Shown here in pieces: positions 1,337 through 11,116 of a DNA stretch of 62,443 nt. The stretch spans positions 1 through 62,443 of the forward strand of contig JAHDIR010000013.1 of the NCBI GenBank assembly GCA_020630675.1, given 5' to 3'. The notes below the pieces were generated by a model. It did no database searches, was not told the DNA's origin, and saw nothing but the letters and a program-made list of their open reading frames with translations. The stretch comes from Bdellovibrionales bacterium (GTDB lineage Bacteria > Bdellovibrionota > Bdellovibrionia > Bdellovibrionales > UBA1609). Position numbers and translations under genes: made by a program. Each line of letters begins with the position of its first letter. Positions within the stretch are counted from its first letter, which is position 1.

Positions 1337-2122
1337 ATGAAAGAAATTAACTTTTCAGGGAAAAAGGTCTTAGTTTGCGGAGCTTCACAAGGCATTGGCC
1401 GTAAAACAGCGGAGATTTTTGCTGAGCTTGGGGCGACAGTTATTCTTATGGCCAGAAATATTGAGCTACTAAAAGAGGTAAAAGCTGAGCTTCCCAATGG
1501 GGACCTTCATAAACTTTATGCCATTGATTTTTTGAATTTGTCATCTTTAGAAACAACCATAGATCAAATTTTACAAGAAACTAACGGTATTGATGTATTA
1601 GTTTGTAACTCTGGTGGGCCAGCTGCAGGCCCCTTAGTTAAGGCTGATCAAGAAAATTTTTTAAATGGGTTTACTCAGCATGTTTTAGCTAACCAGTTGC
1701 TCGTAAAGAAATTAAGTCCTCATATGATTGAAAATAAATTTGGTCGCGTAATCAATATTATATCCACGTCGGTAAAAGTTCCAATTCCGAACTTGGGTGT
1801 GTCTAATACCATTCGTGGAGCAGTTGCCAGCTGGTCAAAATCATTAGCCAATGAGTTAGGAAAACATAATATCACCTTTAATAATGTTCTTCCTGGCTAT
1901 ACTAAAACTGGTCGCTTGGAAAAATTAATAAAAGCCAGCTCTGAGCGCCAAGAAAAAACCCCGTCACAGGTGATTCAAGATTGGAAAGCCAAGGTGCCTA
2001 TGGCTAGGTTTGCTGAGCCTGAAGAGGTGGCTCAGTCTATTGTATTTTTAGCTAGCCCTTGGGCTTCTTATATTAATGGTATCAATTTACCTGTTGATGG
2101 GGGAAGGACTGGTACATTATGA
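1337..2122 (+). CDS. Atypical SDR family oxidoreductase (catalytic Tyr/Lys replaced)
   Basis: First gene of the aromatic-degradation-like operon. It is an NAD(P)-binding short-chain dehydrogenase/reductase with a Rossmann glycine motif (GASQGIG) near the N-terminus, the NxGG variant of NNAG, and the usual C-terminal PVDGG. The YxxxK active-site tetrad is not recognisable: the aligned segment reads SNTIR, as in a divergent SDR group of poorly known function. I start at ATG 1337 because AGGGG lies just upstream; an in-frame ATG at 1316 would add seven residues. It overlaps the next gene by ATGA, implying translational coupling. It could act on a ring or aldehyde intermediate, or have lost redox activity; sequence cannot decide. 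Confidence 0.85.
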   Translation: MKEINFSGKKVLVCGASQGIGRKTAEIFAELGATVILMARNIELLKEVKAELPNGDLHKLYAIDFLNLSSLETTIDQILQETNGIDVLVCNSGGPAAGPLVKADQENFLNGFTQHVLANQLLVKKLSPHMIENKFGRVINIISTSVKVPIPNLGVSNTIRGAVASWSKSLANELGKHNITFNNVLPGYTKTGRLEKLIKASSERQEKTPSQVIQDWKAKVPMARFAEPEEVAQSIVFLASPWASYINGINLPVDGGRTGTL

Positions 2123-3345
2123 AATATGATGTTTTTTTATCGATTTGCCAAAATGAAGTAGATGGCTTTTTACCCACTGAAAAACAAATGTTTGATAACT
2201 TTTTTTCACAAGTTGTACTTGCTGACAAATTAGGTTTTGAGACGGCCTGGATTGCCGAAACCCATTTGTCTTGTGAAACTCAAAAAACTGGAAGTCATCC
2301 TGTGATCCCTCACTTTGTTGGAGAAATTGGATTAAACACAGATATACTTCAAATGGCTTTGGCTGTTTTTTCTAAAACAAAACAAATCAATGTTGGCTCT
2401 GCGATTAGAAATATTTTATGTAATGGTGGACCAATTGCTCATGCTGAAAGTTTAAAAACTTTTTTAAACTTAATGAAGTACACGGGAAATGAAAATAGAA
2501 CTCTTCATTATGGTTTTGCGTCTGGGCGTTTTGAGTTTTCTAATCGACCTTATGGAATTATTCCTAGAAATGAAACAGAAAAGGCAGCCTGGCCGGTAGT
2601 GAAAGGGAAAATCTTACAAGAAGCCACCGAAATATTTTTAAGATTAATTAACGGTGAAACCCTAAGCTTTGAAGATGTACGCGTAAAAACTTTACAGCGC
2701 CAAGATTTTAGGCAAGAAGAAGACTGGAAAAAAGTTCAGCTTGCTCATCAAAAAGAATCTGGTGAACTTAAAGACAAAATTTTCTTGAAGCCCTATTGGC
2801 CTTTTGAAAAATTACGAATTATTCCTGCAGACGTCGATTTGTCTCAATTAAATTTAGTGATTGGAAGTCATGACCCTGCAACTCAGAAATTAGCCAATGA
2901 ATTTTTACCAGTGTCTGTTTTTAACCTTTCTATTACTCCTGCCGATGTTATTGAGAAAACTCACGAAAGAATGAAATCTGAATTTCATAGGGATGGGGGG
3001 CCTTGGCAACGCTCTTATATGCCTCGCACCGCTTTAGTTTATTTAGACGACAGCGAGGGGTTGAGTCGTGAAGAAAAAACGGCAAAGGCTCATGATAAAG
3101 CTCGTAGTGCTTGGGGAGCCTACTTAACAGCTATTCAAGGAACTTTGGACAAAGAAAAAGTCGAAAAAGCAGTAAGTAATACTTTAGCTGGAAGTCCTGA
3201 AGATTTAGCTGCGCAGATTAAGGAAAAATACCACCCTGAAGATAGATTAATGTTGTGGTTTGATTTTAATAACCATGACAATCATGACGTTTGTAAAAGC
3301 ATGAAAGTATTTAAAGAAAAAGTTATACCTTTGATTGAAAATTAA
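2119..3345 (+). CDS. LLM-class (luciferase-like) flavin-dependent monooxygenase
   Basis: This 408-residue protein has the luciferase-like monooxygenase layout: an N-terminal strand with acidic residues (residues 1-15), FETAWIAETH near residue 40, and a long TIM-barrel with the family's VGSAIRN-type strand. Family members are usually FMNH2- or F420-dependent oxygenases acting on small organic substrates. It is translationally coupled to the SDR (ATGA) and followed directly by an aldehyde dehydrogenase, so I infer an oxygenation step feeding the ring-cleavage genes, for example hydroxylation of an amino-aromatic. The substrate is not deducible. Confidence 0.88.
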   Translation: MKYDVFLSICQNEVDGFLPTEKQMFDNFFSQVVLADKLGFETAWIAETHLSCETQKTGSHPVIPHFVGEIGLNTDILQMALAVFSKTKQINVGSAIRNILCNGGPIAHAESLKTFLNLMKYTGNENRTLHYGFASGRFEFSNRPYGIIPRNETEKAAWPVVKGKILQEATEIFLRLINGETLSFEDVRVKTLQRQDFRQEEDWKKVQLAHQKESGELKDKIFLKPYWPFEKLRIIPADVDLSQLNLVIGSHDPATQKLANEFLPVSVFNLSITPADVIEKTHERMKSEFHRDGGPWQRSYMPRTALVYLDDSEGLSREEKTAKAHDKARSAWGAYLTAIQGTLDKEKVEKAVSNTLAGSPEDLAAQIKEKYHPEDRLMLWFDFNNHDNHDVCKSMKVFKEKVIPLIEN

Positions 3346-3358
3346 AAAGGGGAGCCCT

Positions 3359-4798
3359 GTGGAAGTTAAAAATTTTATAAATGGGGAATATGTTGATAGT
3401 CATAGTCAAAAAACAATAGATCTATATGACCCTTCAACGGGAAAGCCTTACGGTACTTTACCGGCTTCAGATGGTATCGATGTTGTTCAAGCTTATCAGT
3501 CTGCAAGAAAAGCTTTTGAAAGCTGGTCTAAAACCAAAACTGCTGAGCGTGTAGAAATCTTTCACCGTATTGCCGATTTAATTGAAAAAAATCAAGACCG
3601 CTTAGCTTTAGCAGAGTCCAAAGATGTCGGAAAGCCCTTATGGTTAGCTAAGGAAGTTGATATTCCTAGGGCGGCATGGAACTTTAGGTACTTTGCCGGA
3701 TTGATCGAACATCACCTTGATCAGTCGGCTAAGGTTGGCCAATCTTTAAGTTACACTTTAAACCAACCTATGGGGGTGGCTGGGTTAATTTCCCCCTGGA
3801 ACCTTCCTTTGTACCTGCTAACATGGAAAATTGCACCGGCCCTTATCATGGGAAATACGGCGGTTTGTAAACCTTCAGAAGTGACACCTGTGACTGCTTT
3901 TTTGCTGGGAGAAATTCTTAATGAGGCCGGTTTGCCGCCTGGGGTTTGTAATATTGTACAAGGAAATGGTGCCGATGCTGGTGCTGCTATTGTTTCTCAC
4001 CCAGGTATTCCTTTAATATCTTTCACGGGCGGAACGGCAACAGGGGAGAGAATTTCTAGTTTGGCAGCTCCTCACTTTAAAAAAGTTAGCCTAGAGTTAG
4101 GTGGAAAAAATGCTAACATTATTTTTAAAGATGCCAATATAAAAAAAGCAGTTCGAGGCTCTGTTCGTGCCAGTTTTTTAAACTCTGGACAAGTTTGTTT
4201 ATGTGGCTCAAGAGTTTTGGTTCAAGAAGCGGTTTATGATGAGTTCATGGAGCAATTTATTGCTGAGGTTAAAAACTTAAAAGTGGGACTGCCATCGGAT
4301 GAATCCGTTTTTATGGGGCCCGTTGTTTCCCAAGATCAAAAAGAAAAAGTTTTAGCTGCGATAACTCAAGCTAAAAAAGAAAATGGTGTAATTTTATGTG
4401 GAGAAGAAAATTTAGATATTCCCAAAGAAAATCAAGATGGATATTTTATTCGCCCCACAGTTGTTGCAGATCTCACTGATTGTTCTGATTTGTGGCAGCG
4501 AGAAATTTTTGGACCACTGGTTACTGTGAGGTCTTTTAAGTATGCTCATGAAGCTGTTAAGCTGGCTAATACTAGCCCGTATGGTTTGTCGGCAAGTATT
4601 TGGACTTCTGATTTATCTCGAGCTCACAAAGTAGCCCATGAAATTGAAGCGGGAACAGTCTGGGTGAATCAATGGTTAAAACGTGATTTGCGTATGCCAT
4701 TTGGTGGCTGGAAGCAGTCTGGTATTGGTCGAGATGGGGCTGAACATTCCTTAAGTTTTTATAGTGAGCAAAAAACTGTTTGCATAAATTTTGGGTAA
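3359..4798 (+). CDS. Aldehyde dehydrogenase, 2-aminomuconic/2-hydroxymuconic semialdehyde dehydrogenase-like
   Basis: NAD-dependent aldehyde dehydrogenase of about 479 residues. Visible family landmarks are SPWNLPL (cofactor-site Asn), FTGGTATG, the general-base segment LELGGKN and the nucleophile segment NSGQVC, plus a C-terminal PFGGWKQSG. I place the start at GTG 3359, preceded by a strong AAAAAGGGGAG, rather than an in-frame ATG at 3335 inside the previous gene. Next to two LigB-type dioxygenase subunits and a RidA gene, it best fits AmnC, which oxidises 2-aminomuconic 6-semialdehyde to 2-aminomuconate; the related hydroxymuconic enzyme (DmpC/XylG) is the alternative. Confidence 0.88.
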   Translation: MEVKNFINGEYVDSHSQKTIDLYDPSTGKPYGTLPASDGIDVVQAYQSARKAFESWSKTKTAERVEIFHRIADLIEKNQDRLALAESKDVGKPLWLAKEVDIPRAAWNFRYFAGLIEHHLDQSAKVGQSLSYTLNQPMGVAGLISPWNLPLYLLTWKIAPALIMGNTAVCKPSEVTPVTAFLLGEILNEAGLPPGVCNIVQGNGADAGAAIVSHPGIPLISFTGGTATGERISSLAAPHFKKVSLELGGKNANIIFKDANIKKAVRGSVRASFLNSGQVCLCGSRVLVQEAVYDEFMEQFIAEVKNLKVGLPSDESVFMGPVVSQDQKEKVLAAITQAKKENGVILCGEENLDIPKENQDGYFIRPTVVADLTDCSDLWQREIFGPLVTVRSFKYAHEAVKLANTSPYGLSASIWTSDLSRAHKVAHEIEAGTVWVNQWLKRDLRMPFGGWKQSGIGRDGAEHSLSFYSEQKTVCINFG

Positions 4799-4821
4799 TT
4801 TAAAAAAAAAGGAGTTTATAT

Positions 4822-5697
4822 ATGTCTGGTAAAATCGTTGCAGGAGCCTTAGCGCCGCATCCTCCTCATTTGGTTTATGCAGAAAACCCAGAGCAAAATG
4901 AGCCCAAAGCTGAGTGCGGATGGGAAACTTTACGCTGGGGCTATGAGTCTTTAAGGCAAAACTTAAATCAAATAGACCATGATGTTTTGATTGTTCACTC
5001 TCCGCATTGGAGAACTCAAACGTCAACGCACTTTTCTGGAGTCTCTCGCTTAAAGTCTCTGTCTGTCGACCCTGTTTTTCCGAACCTTTTTCGTTATAAC
5101 TACGATATGAAGGTAGATGTTGAGCTTGCTGAGGCCATGTATGAAGAAACAAAGGCGGCGGGCCTGCCTGCAGAAATGATGAGAAATAAAAATTTCAGAG
5201 TCGATTATGGATCAATTGTTAGTTTGCATATGGTCAGTCCAACGTGGCAAAAACCGGTGGTGGTAGTTTCTAGTCAGGGGGGGGCTCAGTATTACAATAT
5301 ACACGTAATGCAAGACCTTATGACAGCGCTTGGAGAAGCCACAAGAAAAGCCATAGAAAGTTGTGGTCGAAAAGCGATATTATTAGCTAGTCATTCGTTG
5401 TCTCATCGTCACTTTGTTGAAGAACCGGATATTCCCGAAGATATGAGTAAAGAACATATTTACAACCATGGGCAGTACATTTGGGATATGAAGATGATTG
5501 AACTCATGAAGCAAGGTAAAATGAAAGAGTTTATTGATATTTTACCTGATTTCACTGAAATGACAGAAGCTGAAACTCATGGTGGTGGTTTGATCTGGAT
5601 GATGTCAGCAATGGGTTTTCCAAGCACACCTGCTAAGGTTCACGCCTACGGAACAGTGATTGGTACGGGTAATGCCGTGGTTGAGTGGCAAGCTTAA
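4822..5697 (+). CDS. Class III extradiol dioxygenase, catalytic (AmnB/LigB-like) subunit
   Basis: A 291-residue LigB-fold protein with a full set of candidate Fe(II) and base residues: H13 in APHPPH, H62 in HSPHW, H190/H194 in SHSLSH, and E250 in AETHGG. In this family (LigAB, AmnAB) such residues bind Fe(II) and cleave an aromatic ring next to a hydroxyl or amino group. The following gene is a LigB-fold partner lacking these residues, which matches the AmnB (catalytic)/AmnA (non-catalytic) heterotetramer of 2-aminophenol 1,6-dioxygenase. Shine-Dalgarno AAAAAGGAG precedes ATG 4822. The natural substrate (2-aminophenol, 3-hydroxyanthranilate or other) is inference. Confidence 0.85.
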   Translation: MSGKIVAGALAPHPPHLVYAENPEQNEPKAECGWETLRWGYESLRQNLNQIDHDVLIVHSPHWRTQTSTHFSGVSRLKSLSVDPVFPNLFRYNYDMKVDVELAEAMYEETKAAGLPAEMMRNKNFRVDYGSIVSLHMVSPTWQKPVVVVSSQGGAQYYNIHVMQDLMTALGEATRKAIESCGRKAILLASHSLSHRHFVEEPDIPEDMSKEHIYNHGQYIWDMKMIELMKQGKMKEFIDILPDFTEMTEAETHGGGLIWMMSAMGFPSTPAKVHAYGTVIGTGNAVVEWQA

Positions 5698-5749
5698 TCG
5701 TTTAATATAGATCAAGAGTTAAAGAGTAATTTTTTTAGGAGTAAAAAAA

Positions 5750-6757
5750 ATGTCAACAAATGAAAATGTTAATAAGCAAGACCCTCTTGCTGCCGGTTAC
5801 TACCTGCCTGGTTTGCCTCATATTTTACTGGCTCCCCATAAATATCCTGCTTGGCAAAAAGTGAATGCAGCCTTTCAAAAAGTGAAAGAAGAAATCGAAA
5901 ATATTCAACCAGATCTATTAATAATTTATAGCACCTATTGGGCCAGTGTTTTGGGTCATCAAATACAAGCTAGGCCAAACCCTGAGTGGATTCATGTTGA
6001 TGATCAATTTCATGCTCTTGGTGAGATACCCTACAAATTTAAAATGGATGCCGAGTTTGCCCATGCCTTTAAAGATGAATGCCAAAGCAAAGGGCTTCAT
6101 GCAAGAACGGTCAATTATCATGGTTTTCCAATCGATACTGGAACAGTTGTTGCCTTAAAGTTACTAAATCCAGAAAATAAAATTCCAGCGGTGGTTGTTT
6201 CTAGTAATGTTTATTCTGACCGTAGTGAAACTCTCATTTTAGGAAAGTCGGCGAGACGTACCGTTGAAAAAATGAACAAAAAAGCTGTGGCTATATGCAT
6301 TTCTTCATTATCGAATCGTTTACTGGAAAATTCTGAAGACAATTCTGAAAAAATTTATTCTAAAAAAGATGAAGAGTGGAATCAAAAAGTTTTAGAGTTC
6401 TTTCAAGATGGCCGTTTAGAAGATTTATCACAACTGTCCCGCCAATTTCATAAAGAAGCTCGGGTTAAAAAAGTAAATAACTTTAAACCGATGTGGTTCA
6501 TGGCCTCTCTTATGGGAGAGCATAACAACTATGAAGGTGTTGTTCATGAGTATCAGCCTATGTTGGGAACAGGAGCTGCCGTTGTTGGGCTCACTCCATC
6601 AGTGAGTAAGGCCAATCAGCTTGAGTTTGATGAGTCGAGTCCTGATGTTTTTGATGGTGAAAAAGATGTTCTAGGTGAATTAGAGTTTCCTGAGCGTCAA
6701 AATATGGGAAGGTCTCACCTTTCCGAGTTTGATGAAGGGAAAGGAGCTTTTTCATGA
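5750..6757 (+). CDS. LigB-fold non-catalytic (AmnA-like) dioxygenase subunit
   Basis: This 335-residue protein is a homologue of the previous subunit with the iron ligands gone. The second-ligand region reads YSTYW (residues 60-64) instead of HSPHW, and the SHSLSH segment is replaced by SSLSNR. YST-W and GFPIDTGT match my recollection of the alpha subunit of 2-aminophenol 1,6-dioxygenase. It is longer than the roughly 270 residues of AmnA: an acidic tail of about 55 residues follows the conserved MLGTGAAVVG segment. Shine-Dalgarno AGGAG precedes ATG 5750, and the gene overlaps the next one by ATGA. It probably forms a structural partner that shapes the active site of the catalytic subunit. 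Confidence 0.82.
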   Translation: MSTNENVNKQDPLAAGYYLPGLPHILLAPHKYPAWQKVNAAFQKVKEEIENIQPDLLIIYSTYWASVLGHQIQARPNPEWIHVDDQFHALGEIPYKFKMDAEFAHAFKDECQSKGLHARTVNYHGFPIDTGTVVALKLLNPENKIPAVVVSSNVYSDRSETLILGKSARRTVEKMNKKAVAICISSLSNRLLENSEDNSEKIYSKKDEEWNQKVLEFFQDGRLEDLSQLSRQFHKEARVKKVNNFKPMWFMASLMGEHNNYEGVVHEYQPMLGTGAAVVGLTPSVSKANQLEFDESSPDVFDGEKDVLGELEFPERQNMGRSHLSEFDEGKGAFS

Positions 6758-7854
6758 GTTCCATAAGTAACAGCAATAAGTACCCCTCTTCTTCTTTAGG
6801 TGAAACTGAAGCCGGAATTCCAACTGGGCGTGATGTCGAATGGCAACCTCTTGTCGACTATCGCCGAAACGGCGTGAGTGAAAATACTATTCACGGGGCT
6901 GTTTCTTGGTTTAGCGGAAACAAGTTAGTACATTCTTTTGGCGGTAATGTTTTGTGTTATGGTCGAAGCATGATGAAGCCTTTTTATATAAAAGTTTTTT
7001 CTGAAGAATTAAAAAGTAAAACTAACTGGAAGCAAAAAGCCATCAGTGTTTCTAGTCACAATGGTACAGTGGCTCATGTGGAGGCCGCCCTTTCTCTTTT
7101 ATCAAAAGGGGAGCGTGGTTTAATGCGCACGCCATTGGACTTGCCCTTGGTGCAGTTTGGTCGCCAGGTTCGAAGGCCTCGTCGTTGGTACAATAACTCT
7201 TCAGGTCATCATGCGGCTATACTGTTGGGTTGTCGATTAAAGGGTTGGAGTCGAGCCGGTTACACTTTACCTTCGCATAAAATTTTTGAAGGCTATAAAA
7301 AAGTGGTAAAAAGTTACCTAGGAGAGAGTTGGGCCCCTTTAAAAATTGCTCGTGATGGTGATGGTTTGCCGACCTGTTCTATGACAGTGAGTGAGCTTGC
7401 AAAATGTTACGCCGGACTTTCTTTGCGTAAAAATGAGGACTGGATTTGGGAGGCCATGTGTAAAGAGCCAGATTTAGTCGGAGGATATAATCGTTTAGAT
7501 ACAACCATTATTAAATCCTGCACAGGCAAAGTAATTGCTAAAGAAGGTGCTGACGGTCTTTTGGGTATGGCCATTGAGCATCCTGATTTCCCTGAGGGCT
7601 TAGGGGTTGTTATTAAAATAGCCCATGGTTGGAACCCTCAGGCCACTTGGTATGTTGCTCGTGGAATCTTAGGCTGTCTAGATTTTGAGTTAAGAAACCC
7701 TTATCCCTTACAGCGTCAAAAAGCTTTTTTAGTTCCTGGAATAGTGCCTGAATTTTTATTAGAAAAAATGAAAAAAATTAATACTTGGGACGATTGGGAC
7801 CCTGATAATGATCGTTGGTATTATGATTTAGAAAGGCATAAAGGTCTTTTGTAA
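6754..7854 (+). CDS. Asparaginase II (AnsA/ReAV-type) family protein with substituted metal-site residues
   Basis: A 366-residue member of the asparaginase_II family (Rhizobium etli thermolabile asparaginase type). Family landmarks are YGRSMMKPF (residues 69-77), SSHNGT (100-104) and NNSSGHHAAIL (147-157). In the characterised enzyme the zinc site is formed by Cys and Lys of the CSGKH motif and Cys of the DGCG motif. Here these are S149, H152 and D203 (SSGHH and DGDG), so all three ligands differ. It is coupled by ATGA to the dioxygenase alpha subunit. I infer a changed hydrolase or amidase, perhaps acting on an aminomuconate-derived compound, rather than a housekeeping asparaginase. Confidence 0.82.
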   Translation: MSSISNSNKYPSSSLGETEAGIPTGRDVEWQPLVDYRRNGVSENTIHGAVSWFSGNKLVHSFGGNVLCYGRSMMKPFYIKVFSEELKSKTNWKQKAISVSSHNGTVAHVEAALSLLSKGERGLMRTPLDLPLVQFGRQVRRPRRWYNNSSGHHAAILLGCRLKGWSRAGYTLPSHKIFEGYKKVVKSYLGESWAPLKIARDGDGLPTCSMTVSELAKCYAGLSLRKNEDWIWEAMCKEPDLVGGYNRLDTTIIKSCTGKVIAKEGADGLLGMAIEHPDFPEGLGVVIKIAHGWNPQATWYVARGILGCLDFELRNPYPLQRQKAFLVPGIVPEFLLEKMKKINTWDDWDPDNDRWYYDLERHKGLL

Positions 7855-7921
7855 AATTAGGGCAATCGTAATTAAATGAGCTCTTGTTTTTTTAATTGAA
7901 AATTTATTTTAGGAGAAAGTT

Positions 7922-8335
7922 ATGTCTGAGAAAATTATGACAAGTGGGGCGCCAGAGCCAGTGGGCGCTTACCCTCATGCAAGAATAGAGGGAGATTTTA
8001 TTTTTTTAAGTGGCGTGGGACCAAGAAAAAAAGGAAGCTCAGACATACCTGGTGTGACCTTAGATGATCAGGGAAACATAATTGACTATGATGTTGTGGT
8101 GCAAACAGAATCCGTCATTAACAACGTAAAAATGATTTTAGAGTCAATGGGGAAATCTTTGATGGATGTGATTGATGTTCAAGTCTTTTTAACAAACATG
8201 AAGGCAGATTTTAAAAAATTTAACCCTGTCTACGCGAAACATTTTACTGATATTGGTGCAACTCGAACAACCATTGAAGTAGGAGCTTTGCCAACGCCCA
8301 TTGCCGTTGAATTTAAAGTTATTGCAAAGTCTTAA
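7922..8335 (+). CDS. RidA family protein, 2-aminomuconate deaminase (AmnD)-like
   Basis: A 137-residue RidA/YjgF/UK114-family protein: GAPEPVGAYPHA at the start, a FLSGVGP strand, and ALPTPIAVEFKVIA at the end. The usual Arg of RidA proteins that binds the imine's carboxylate is not obvious (TTIEVGAL in place of RTTVEV-type strands, though a TRTT run precedes it). Known AmnD 2-aminomuconate deaminases belong to this superfamily, and the neighbouring LigB-type and aldehyde dehydrogenase genes suggest this role. General imine deamination is the alternative. AGGAGAAA sits seven bases before ATG 7922. A 67-bp gap separates it from the upstream gene; it is probably the last gene of the operon. Confidence 0.82.
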   Translation: MSEKIMTSGAPEPVGAYPHARIEGDFIFLSGVGPRKKGSSDIPGVTLDDQGNIIDYDVVVQTESVINNVKMILESMGKSLMDVIDVQVFLTNMKADFKKFNPVYAKHFTDIGATRTTIEVGALPTPIAVEFKVIAKS

Positions 8336-9964: not shown

Positions 9965-11116
9965 TTATTTAGAGAGTTCAATTTTAGCAATAGTTTGAAG
10001 TTGCATATTAGAAGTCCCTTCATAAATTTGACCAATCTTTGCGTCACGGTAGAATTTTTCAGCTGGGTACTCTTTGGTAAAACCATTGCCACCAAAAAGA
10101 TCCACCGCCATAGAGGCTATTTTTTCAGCCGCACGCGATGAATAGAGTTTAGCCATTGCGGCTTCTTCGACAAAATCTTGACCATTGTCTTTAAGGCGAG
10201 CGGCATTGTACACCATTAAACGTGAAGCTTCGAGTTCAGTTCGCATTTCAGCGAGTTGAAATTGTACACCTTGAAATTTAGCTAGAGGTTTGCCAAATTG
10301 CTCTCGAGATTTGATATAATCTAAAGTTGCTTCATAAGCGCCCTGAGCTATACCTAGCATTTGGGCTCCAATTCCTATTCGACCTTCATTTAATGTTTCA
10401 ATAGCTATTTTATAACCTTTACCAACTTCACCAATGACATTTTCTTTAGGGACTTTGCAGTTTTCAAAAATAAGTTCACAAGTGGAACTTGCACGTATGC
10501 CAAGTTTATCTTCTTTTTTTCCGATGGTAAAACCTTCAGTGTCACGATCTACTATAAAGCCTGTAATGCCTTTGTAACCCAATTCTGGATTGATGTTAGC
10601 AAAGACTAAGAAAATTTCGGCCTCACCGGCGTTAGTGATCCAAAGCTTATGGCCATTGAGAGCATAATGGTCACCTTTGTCTTCAGCTTTTAGTTTTAAA
10701 GCAAAAGCATCACTGCCGCTTACGCTTTCACTTAAAGCATAGGCACCGACCTTGCTCTGAGCAAGTTGAGGTAAGTATTTCTTTTTTTGTTCATCATTGC
10801 CCCAGCGAATAAAGGCATTGGTCACAAGAGTATTTTGAACATCAACCATAACACTCACAGAGCCATCTACCCTAGCTATTTCTTCGACAGCAAGGCAGGC
10901 CATTGTAAATGAACTACCCACTCCACCGTATTCTTCAGGTGTTTCAATTCCCATGAAGCCCATTTCAAAAATTTGCTTAATGAGTTCTGGGCTGAGCTTG
11001 GCCTCTTCATCCATTTTAGTCACTAACGGTTTGATTTCTCCTTCAGCAAATTGTCTTACGGCGTCTTTGAAGGCTAATTCGTCCTCAGAAAGTTGGGTTA
11101 TAGCTGGGTTTGTCAT
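9965..11116 (-). CDS. Acyl-CoA dehydrogenase
   Basis: FAD-dependent acyl-CoA dehydrogenase of 383 residues, the normal length for short/branched-chain enzymes. Landmarks are the FAD/substrate segment YALSESVSGSDA, LWITNAGEA, LNEGRIGIGAQMLGIAQGA, FGGNGFTKEYP and the catalytic-base segment IYEGTSNMQ close to the C-terminus. It catalyses the alpha-beta dehydrogenation of an acyl-CoA in fatty- or amino-acid catabolism, passing electrons to ETF. It is divergent from a stand-alone B12-binding protein, which may hint at branched-chain or propionate metabolism. Chain-length preference cannot be read. Confidence 0.94.
   Translation of the reverse strand: MTNPAITQLSEDELAFKDAVRQFAEGEIKPLVTKMDEEAKLSPELIKQIFEMGFMGIETPEEYGGVGSSFTMACLAVEEIARVDGSVSVMVDVQNTLVTNAFIRWGNDEQKKKYLPQLAQSKVGAYALSESVSGSDAFALKLKAEDKGDHYALNGHKLWITNAGEAEIFLVFANINPELGYKGITGFIVDRDTEGFTIGKKEDKLGIRASSTCELIFENCKVPKENVIGEVGKGYKIAIETLNEGRIGIGAQMLGIAQGAYEATLDYIKSREQFGKPLAKFQGVQFQLAEMRTELEASRLMVYNAARLKDNGQDFVEEAAMAKLYSSRAAEKIASMAVDLFGGNGFTKEYPAEKFYRDAKIGQIYEGTSNMQLQTIAKIELSK

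Follow-up and report, generated by a model that had tools for sequence, protein, structure and literature searches.

We analyzed a 62,443-nucleotide stretch of DNA (positions 1-62,443, hereafter the window) from contig JAHDIR010000013.1 of a Bdellovibrionales bacterium (assembly GCA_020630675.1; the genome is designated G000), in which a seven-gene operon at positions 1337-8335 probably encodes the middle of a kynurenine pathway for tryptophan degradation in which kynurenine 3-monooxygenase (KMO) and kynureninase are bypassed by means of a Baeyer-Villiger reaction and the release of aspartate. That the operon is tied to tryptophan catabolism we consider very likely. Kynurenine is probably converted to 2-aminophenol in two steps, by a luciferase-like monooxygenase (LLM) and an asparaginase-II-family hydrolase (AsnII), which would replace KMO, kynureninase (KynU), 3-hydroxyanthranilate dioxygenase (HAO) and 2-amino-3-carboxymuconate 6-semialdehyde (ACMS) decarboxylase (ACMSD). 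On balance, we favor the view that Baeyer-Villiger oxidation by LLM, a split by AsnII into L-aspartate and 2-aminophenol, and ring opening of the AmnBA type form a second, widespread route of tryptophan degradation, which stands in for the same four enzymes in many Bdellovibrionota, Acidobacteriota, Myxococcota and Planctomycetota. The genes of the operon are:

1337-2122, + strand, short-chain dehydrogenase/reductase (SDR) oxidoreductase (PF13561, 6e-45)
2119-3345, + strand, luciferase-like flavin mononucleotide (FMN) monooxygenase, LLM (PF00296, 4.5e-11)
3359-4798, + strand, AmnC-like aldehyde dehydrogenase (ALDH), proposed 2-aminomuconate 6-semialdehyde dehydrogenase (AMSDH) (PDB 4u3w, 2.8e-123)
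4822-5697, + strand, LigB catalytic (beta) subunit, AmnB-like 2-aminophenol 1,6-dioxygenase (PDB 3vsg_B, 1.5e-106)
5750-6757, + strand, LigB alpha subunit, AmnA-like (PDB 7txy_A, 2.8e-46)
6754-7854, + strand, asparaginase-II-family hydrolase, AsnII (PF06089, 1.5e-43; ReAIV/ReAV matches)
7922-8335, + strand, RidA-family protein (Ribonuc_L-PSP), proposed AmnD-like 2-aminomuconate deaminase (PDB 6izh, 1.2e-23)

The seven genes all have intact open reading frames, their domains were named by Pfam, and ATGA overlaps join SDR to LLM (2119-2122) and LigB alpha to AsnII (6754-6757). The first-pass annotation, made from the sequence alone, had named these seven genes, two ATGA junctions and a catalytic plus a non-catalytic LigB subunit, and the open reading frames, Pfam and PDB matches confirmed it in all three respects. 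Because the same set recurs in relatives, the gene set is not a product of chance. As read from the sequence, the start of ALDH is most likely the GTG at 3359 behind AAGGGGAG; for SDR, an alternative in-frame ATG at 1316 is possible. A scan for promoters and terminators gave counts at the level of shuffled sequences.

Proposed pathway

We infer the individual reactions, above all those of LLM and AsnII, as follows. Kynurenine would be made by tryptophan 2,3-dioxygenase (TDO) and KynB, which are encoded elsewhere in G000. LLM, supplied with reduced flavin, would insert one oxygen atom into the bond that joins the side-chain carbonyl to the aminophenyl ring in a type II Baeyer-Villiger reaction, yielding L-aspartate beta-(2-aminophenyl) ester, for which a spontaneous rearrangement to N4-(2-hydroxyphenyl)-asparagine is possible. 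Such products are those expected from Baeyer-Villiger chemistry on kynurenine, in which the electron-rich ring migrates and the resulting ester can rearrange to the amide. AsnII would then hydrolyze the beta-aspartyl compound to L-aspartate and 2-aminophenol; since ester and amide are both beta-aspartyl compounds, recruitment of an asparaginase-family enzyme is plausible. The LigB beta and alpha subunits would open the ring of 2-aminophenol to 2-aminomuconate 6-semialdehyde, ALDH would oxidize the latter to 2-aminomuconate, and RidA would deaminate 2-aminomuconate to 4-oxalocrotonate. SDR probably acts on a late common intermediate, perhaps reducing it towards 2-oxoadipate.

Linkage to TDO and KynB and exclusion of kynureninase

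The first-pass annotation had offered tryptophan as an example of the source of the amino-aromatic compound and had proposed a genome search for the kynurenine pathway. This search found TDO and KynB genes about 1.1 kb apart on contig C2 of G000 (L201), and a profile search of the same genome gave no match to kynureninase. The TDO is closest to eukaryote-type TDO structures (4hka, 4e-100), and KynB scores 196 bits with TIGR03035, below the cut-off of 223. Beside the eukaryote-type TDO, a HutG-like ureohydrolase and a beta-eliminating-lyase-type pyridoxal phosphate (PLP) enzyme resembling threonine aldolase are encoded (L201:4064-6062 on contig C2; also L202-L206 and L210), and these neighbors occur in both LLM and kynureninase genomes.

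We scanned one genome per species with an LLM profile, confirmed 197 relatives and analyzed the best 80 loci. TDO or KynB was present in 30 of them and both in eight, mostly abutting the operon on the same strand, so that the example source named in the first-pass annotation gained support. The gap to a KynB gene that follows on the same strand never exceeds 92 bases; that to a preceding TDO gene measures 2-145 bases in 12 of 14 cases, and 396 and 917 bases in the other two. As many of the LLM contigs are short, these counts are lower bounds, and among the loci of at least 15 kb TDO or KynB was found in 23 of 48. Searched with references from a kynureninase-bearing genome of the same family, none of the 80 loci contained kynureninase, KMO, HAO or ACMSD; as a control, the same references detected all four enzymes in loci L207 and L209, with 48-62% identity.

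In the window's family (47 genomes), KynB matches were present in all 20 LLM genomes compared with 8 of the 27 others, and TDO matches, none of which exceeded the cut-off, in 18 of 20 compared with 11 of 27. Kynureninase over the cut-off was found in five of the 47 genomes, none of them with LLM. Across the class (143 genomes), 48 genomes encode LLM, 17 encode kynureninase over the cut-off, and none encodes both; the hypergeometric chance of zero overlap is 6e-4, a value not corrected for relatedness. A simple either-or is nevertheless blurred by G039, which has a kynureninase fragment only, and by weak hits of the kynureninase profile in many genomes, some with LLM, which lie below the cut-off and are typical of a PLP-enzyme profile.

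In three of the kynureninase genomes (G041, G042 and G045; L207-L209), genes for kynureninase (TIGR01814, 423 bits in L208), KMO (5x6p, 2.6e-82), HAO (PRK13264, 252 bits) and ACMSD (2wm1, 5e-139) adjoin ALDH, RidA and SDR genes whose products are 46-49%, 53-57% and 34-36% identical to those of the window, respectively. G045 additionally has a 4-oxalocrotonate-decarboxylase-like gene (TIGR03218, 210 bits; cut-off 351). The two operon types have in common the steps before kynurenine and after 2-aminomuconate semialdehyde, and between these points one type has KMO, KynU, HAO and ACMSD, the other LLM, AsnII and LigB beta/alpha. If LigB cleaves 2-aminophenol, LLM and AsnII must therefore convert kynurenine to 2-aminophenol, which is the core of our argument.

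The monooxygenase and the hydrolase

The predicted structure of LLM (pLDDT 85) has the bacterial luciferase fold. Its best fold matches are luciferases (Z 28.0, root-mean-square deviation (rmsd) 3.0 over 319 residues), RslO1 gave Z 26.9, and RutA was also among the matches (Z 21.9). Comparison with 3,6-DKCMO (4uwm_A), a type II Baeyer-Villiger monooxygenase (BVMO), gave Z 23.4 and rmsd 4.0 over 318 aligned residues with 16% identity. The literature assigns this enzyme, 3,6-diketocamphane monooxygenase, to the type II BVMOs of the luciferase family (PMC4631483), and it shares the luciferase-family fold with LLM over the whole chain. On the basis of the modeled structure and of its linkage with TDO or KynB in 30 of the 80 loci, LLM is a candidate kynurenine Baeyer-Villiger monooxygenase. 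In the same-genus genome G021, a Flavin_Reduct-domain gene adjoins LLM (L092:1634-2266) and SDR is not beside LLM; the Flavin_Reduct-domain protein is a candidate FMN reductase partner.

AsnII matches the fold of the class 3 asparaginases ReAIV and ReAV of Rhizobium etli with 21-25% identity, and it retains their Ser-Lys tandems and the substrate-binding Arg (Arg47 of ReAV), as judged by mapping the ReAV numbering onto AsnII of the window by motif order and the ReAIV alignment. All 69 aligned copies retain residues R71, S72, K75, S101, H153, D201 and K263. For ReAV, it is reported that the Arg stabilizes the alpha-carboxylate of L-Asn and that alanine at Arg47, Ser48, Lys51, Ser80 or Lys263 abolishes activity (PMC12292245). 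The ReAV zinc ligands C135, K138 and C189 are given as 99%, 97% and 99% conserved in ReAV orthologs (PMC11024299), whereas this Cys-Lys-Cys triad is not kept in AsnII of the window, which has S149, H152 and D203 instead. The corresponding positions in the 69 aligned copies are Ser-His-Asp in 28, Cys-Glu-Cys in 22, Cys-Lys-Cys in 16 and Ser-Gln-Asp in three. The two Cys positions covary, being Cys/Cys in 38 copies or Ser/Asp in 31 and never mixed, and the Lys position is occupied by Lys or Glu with Cys/Cys and by His or Gln with Ser/Asp, a natural series of variants for the role of the metal.

The altered zinc site fits a leaving group other than ammonia, and we propose AsnII as a candidate hydrolase that would release aspartate and 2-aminophenol. 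The first-pass annotation had suggested that LLM and an altered amidase add unusual steps; it had missed the probable origin of the aminophenol from kynurenine. We also considered cyclized 2-aminomuconate as the AsnII substrate and dropped it, because LLM and AsnII co-occur without LigB.

Probable ring opening and later steps

By sequence, the LigB pair clearly belongs with the 2-aminophenol 1,6-dioxygenases. LigB beta aligns with 3vsg_B over residues 1-290 without a gap and also matches 8ihg_A (4.8e-106), whereas the match to HpaD (8iq8) reaches merely 2.4e-13; LigB of the protocatechuate or HpaD type was ruled out, as such matches are far weaker than those to AmnBA chains. Among 53 aligned rows, H62 and H195 are present in all 53, H13 in 51 (two gaps) and E251 in 52 (one gap); we take H13, H62 and E251 to be iron ligands and H195 to be catalytic.

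The best PDB matches of ALDH are 2-aminomuconate 6-semialdehyde dehydrogenases (TIGR03216, 529 bits, cut-off 693), and the nearest PDB chain of RidA is the 2-aminomuconate deaminase 6izh (86 bits; TIGR00004, 84 bits, cut-off 106). ALDH and RidA are thus likely to be AmnC-like and AmnD-like, both with scores under the NCBIfam cut-offs, and the PDB matches support the assignment of an AmnB/AmnA pair with AmnC- and AmnD-like enzymes made in the first-pass annotation. Outside LLM operons, SDR is closest to the SDRs of the kynureninase operons, with 139-156 bits and 34-36% identity, whereas no other SDR scores above 80.5 bits, and SDR probably acts at a late step common to the kynureninase-type kynurenine operons.

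The operon had been described as lacking its lower half. This holds in the window, where no match to a 4-oxalocrotonate-decarboxylase-like protein was found, and in the whole of G000 for enzymes of the fumarylacetoacetate (FAA) hydrolase type: PF01557 gave one match, a 333-aa fumarylacetoacetase-like protein adjoining a glutathione S-transferase (GST)-like gene, and no other such lower-half enzyme, a negative that covers the FAA-hydrolase-type decarboxylase and hydratase, the aldolase and acylating dehydrogenase not having been searched for. In animals, the kynurenine pathway has a reductive exit to 2-oxoadipate. By analogy, an exit of this kind would account for the absence of a lower half and would provide a role for SDR.

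Distribution of the operon

In the window's family, LigB, LLM and AsnII each have matches in 20 of 47 genomes, and LigB and LLM occur together in 19. The exceptions are G023 (74% complete), with LigB and AsnII and no LLM match; G029, in which LLM and a 41%-identical AsnII lie side by side without LigB; G026, where the LigB match is an alpha-subunit fragment at a contig end; and G017, with no AsnII match and a contig that ends inside LigB alpha. AsnII is the most conserved operon protein in most of the L033-L052 neighborhoods (G021-type to G052-type), with 70-86% identity (58% in G018). Several genomes have the set divided between contigs, with SDR-LLM(-ALDH) on one and LigB-LigB-AsnII-RidA on another, and both of these blocks are kept.

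Judged by their record titles, the 80 LLM loci belong to Bdellovibrionota, Acidobacteriota, Myxococcota, Planctomycetota and other groups, including the complete genome of the cultured Sulfidibacter corallicola M133 (LLM in L139, LigB-AsnII in L239). They contain ALDH (54 loci), SDR (54), AsnII (52), LigB beta (37), LigB alpha (33), RidA (33), KynB (22), TDO (16) and an FAA-hydrolase-type decarboxylase/hydratase (3). Among 20 genomes whose LLM locus is without LigB, LigB beta was found elsewhere in 13, and among 19 whose locus is also without AsnII, 12 encode AsnII elsewhere, with 62-77% identity. Distances among LLM, AsnII, ALDH and LigB beta (34 loci) correlate moderately (r 0.45-0.79), a hint of mixed inheritance.

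LLM is followed directly by AsnII with no LigB nearby in G029, L145, L150, L175 and L180. In L145, KynB comes immediately after AsnII, with TDO on the opposite strand 0.7 kb beyond, which would put the LLM-AsnII pair directly after KynB in the pathway. The pairs of G029 (L097:6367-8529) and Alteromonas sp. a30 (L150:9707-12203) belong to genomes without a LigB match; in such genomes, the aminophenol would need another fate. LLM relatives were also found in Tolypothrix campylonemoides (L140) and two Planctomycetota metagenome-assembled genomes (MAGs; L171 and L178), whose genomes are without LigB beta or ortholog-like AsnII, possibly reflecting a different use of the same oxygenase.

Alternative explanations

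Several observations weigh against the proposed route. The LLM model is closer to luciferases (Z 28.0) than to BVMOs (Z 23.4), in a superfamily that catalyzes many reactions. TDO and KynB lie outside the window, and KMO, HAO and ACMSD, of which none was found in the window or the 80 LLM loci, were not searched for in the whole of G000. Two genomes, G019 and G020, have TDO and KynB and neither LLM nor kynureninase over the cut-off. Seven of the 20 tested LLM genomes are without any LigB beta match, and seven of the 19 whose locus is without AsnII have no ortholog-like AsnII; LLM in the former may therefore serve other ends or feed another aminophenol user.

We consider it unlikely that LLM is a ring hydroxylase in place of KMO and AsnII a C-C hydrolase in place of kynureninase, with 3-hydroxyanthranilate and alanine as products and LigB cleaving the former. 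The upstream TDO and KynB and the exclusion of kynureninase would be the same in this scheme. Its ring-opening product, however, would be ACMS, yet ACMSD occurs in none of the 80 loci, the LigB pair groups with 2-aminophenol enzymes, and the active site of AsnII is of the asparaginase type, not that of a PLP enzyme or a C-C hydrolase.

Ordinary catabolism of environmental 2-aminophenol by an Amn pathway, with two extra genes for some other N-aromatic compound and a coincidental link to tryptophan, is improbable. LigB, ALDH and RidA would be enough for 2-aminophenol itself, and plasmid-borne amn clusters of Comamonas and others hold relatives with 53-57% identity, but coincidence accounts poorly for TDO or KynB in 30 of the 80 loci, usually abutting and in several phyla, for KynB in every LLM genome of the family, and for the exclusion of kynureninase.

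It is very improbable that the operon is biosynthetic and makes a signal or antibiotic-like metabolite from an opened amino-aromatic compound. Its product could accumulate in the absence of the FAA-hydrolase-type decarboxylase/hydratase, and some genomes carry LLM and AsnII without LigB; on the other side, no extra genes besides TDO and KynB accompany the operon repeatedly across groups, and the kynureninase operons seen in the same family appear to be catabolic. No sign was found in support of the detoxification or signaling/antibiotic-like product that the first-pass annotation had envisaged. A Baeyer-Villiger reaction with alkyl migration, giving O-anthraniloyl-serine and hence anthranilate and serine, is formally possible with the same enzyme pair and substrate but is equally improbable, because migration of the electron-rich aryl group is favored, AmnBA-type dioxygenases do not use anthranilate, and a beta-aspartyl product suits an asparaginase relative far better.

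Relation to known systems

The route that we favor, from kynurenine through an aspartate ester to 2-aminophenol, has TDO, KynB, ALDH, RidA and SDR types in common with the canonical kynurenine pathway (TDO, KynB, KMO, KynU, HAO, ACMSD, AMSDH and deaminase; here L207-L209), and differs from it in that LLM, AsnII, LigB beta and LigB alpha take the place of KMO, KynU, HAO and ACMSD. With the Amn pathway, as described for the cnb genes of Comamonas testosteroni CNB-1 and for the ARO microcompartment of Actinobacteria (PMC10470539), it shares the AmnB/AmnA-type dioxygenase and, probably, the 2-aminomuconate semialdehyde dehydrogenase and the RidA-type deaminase, whereas the window operon has no detected decarboxylase or hydratase, adds SDR, LLM and AsnII, and has relatives linked to TDO and KynB. 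A passage of the ARO microcompartment paper terms the precursor of its 2-aminophenol unknown (PMC10470539).

At the level of single enzymes, luciferases and RslO1 score higher against the LLM model (Z 26.8-28.0) than 4uwm does, and the zinc triad of ReAV/ReAIV is replaced by Ser-His-Asp in the window and by Cys-Glu-Cys in many relatives of AsnII. RutA/RutB and PyrA/PyrC are pairs of a flavin monooxygenase and a hydrolase in N-heterocycle breakdown. Their logic is alike, in that a luciferase-fold oxygenase makes a hydrolyzable acyl compound which the partner hydrolase splits, but the pair in the window has another hydrolase fold and substrate class. Opening of an N-heterocycle upstream of ring cleavage, as by RutA or PyrA, was considered and dropped, since the linked genes are TDO and KynB.

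We found no description of such a kynurenine-to-2-aminophenol route in the open PMC literature (bioRxiv and most subscription journals lie outside this scope). Few routes of amino-acid degradation have been studied as much as the kynurenine pathway, whose bacterial forms are assumed to require kynureninase. If the proposed route is correct, a form without this enzyme, spread over several phyla and not occurring together with kynureninase, would be a gap in metabolic annotation: the genomes concerned would be judged incapable of degrading tryptophan beyond kynurenine, and the only names that their LLM and AsnII proteins bear are 'luciferase-like' and 'asparaginase'. The route would also extend Baeyer-Villiger chemistry to an aryl-ketone amino acid, assign a new activity to the class 3 asparaginase fold and explain where 2-aminophenol dioxygenases could obtain their substrate in nature.

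Other genes near the operon

The acyl-CoA dehydrogenase gene at 9965-11116 of the window was considered as a glutaryl-CoA dehydrogenase, which its score did not support (304 bits; cut-off 470). A MAG titled Streptomyces griseus (L113) carries a Bdellovibrionales-type operon and is probably mislabeled or a mixed bin. In one genus (G008-G010), a small lipoprotein-like gene lies between LLM and ALDH (L037:7707-8105, L041:3547-3957 and L042:5767-6150). An oligoribonuclease-like gene is a frequent divergent neighbor in Bdellovibrionota loci and was present in 15 of the 80 LLM loci (e.g. L038:1438-1974 and L039:3505-4038).

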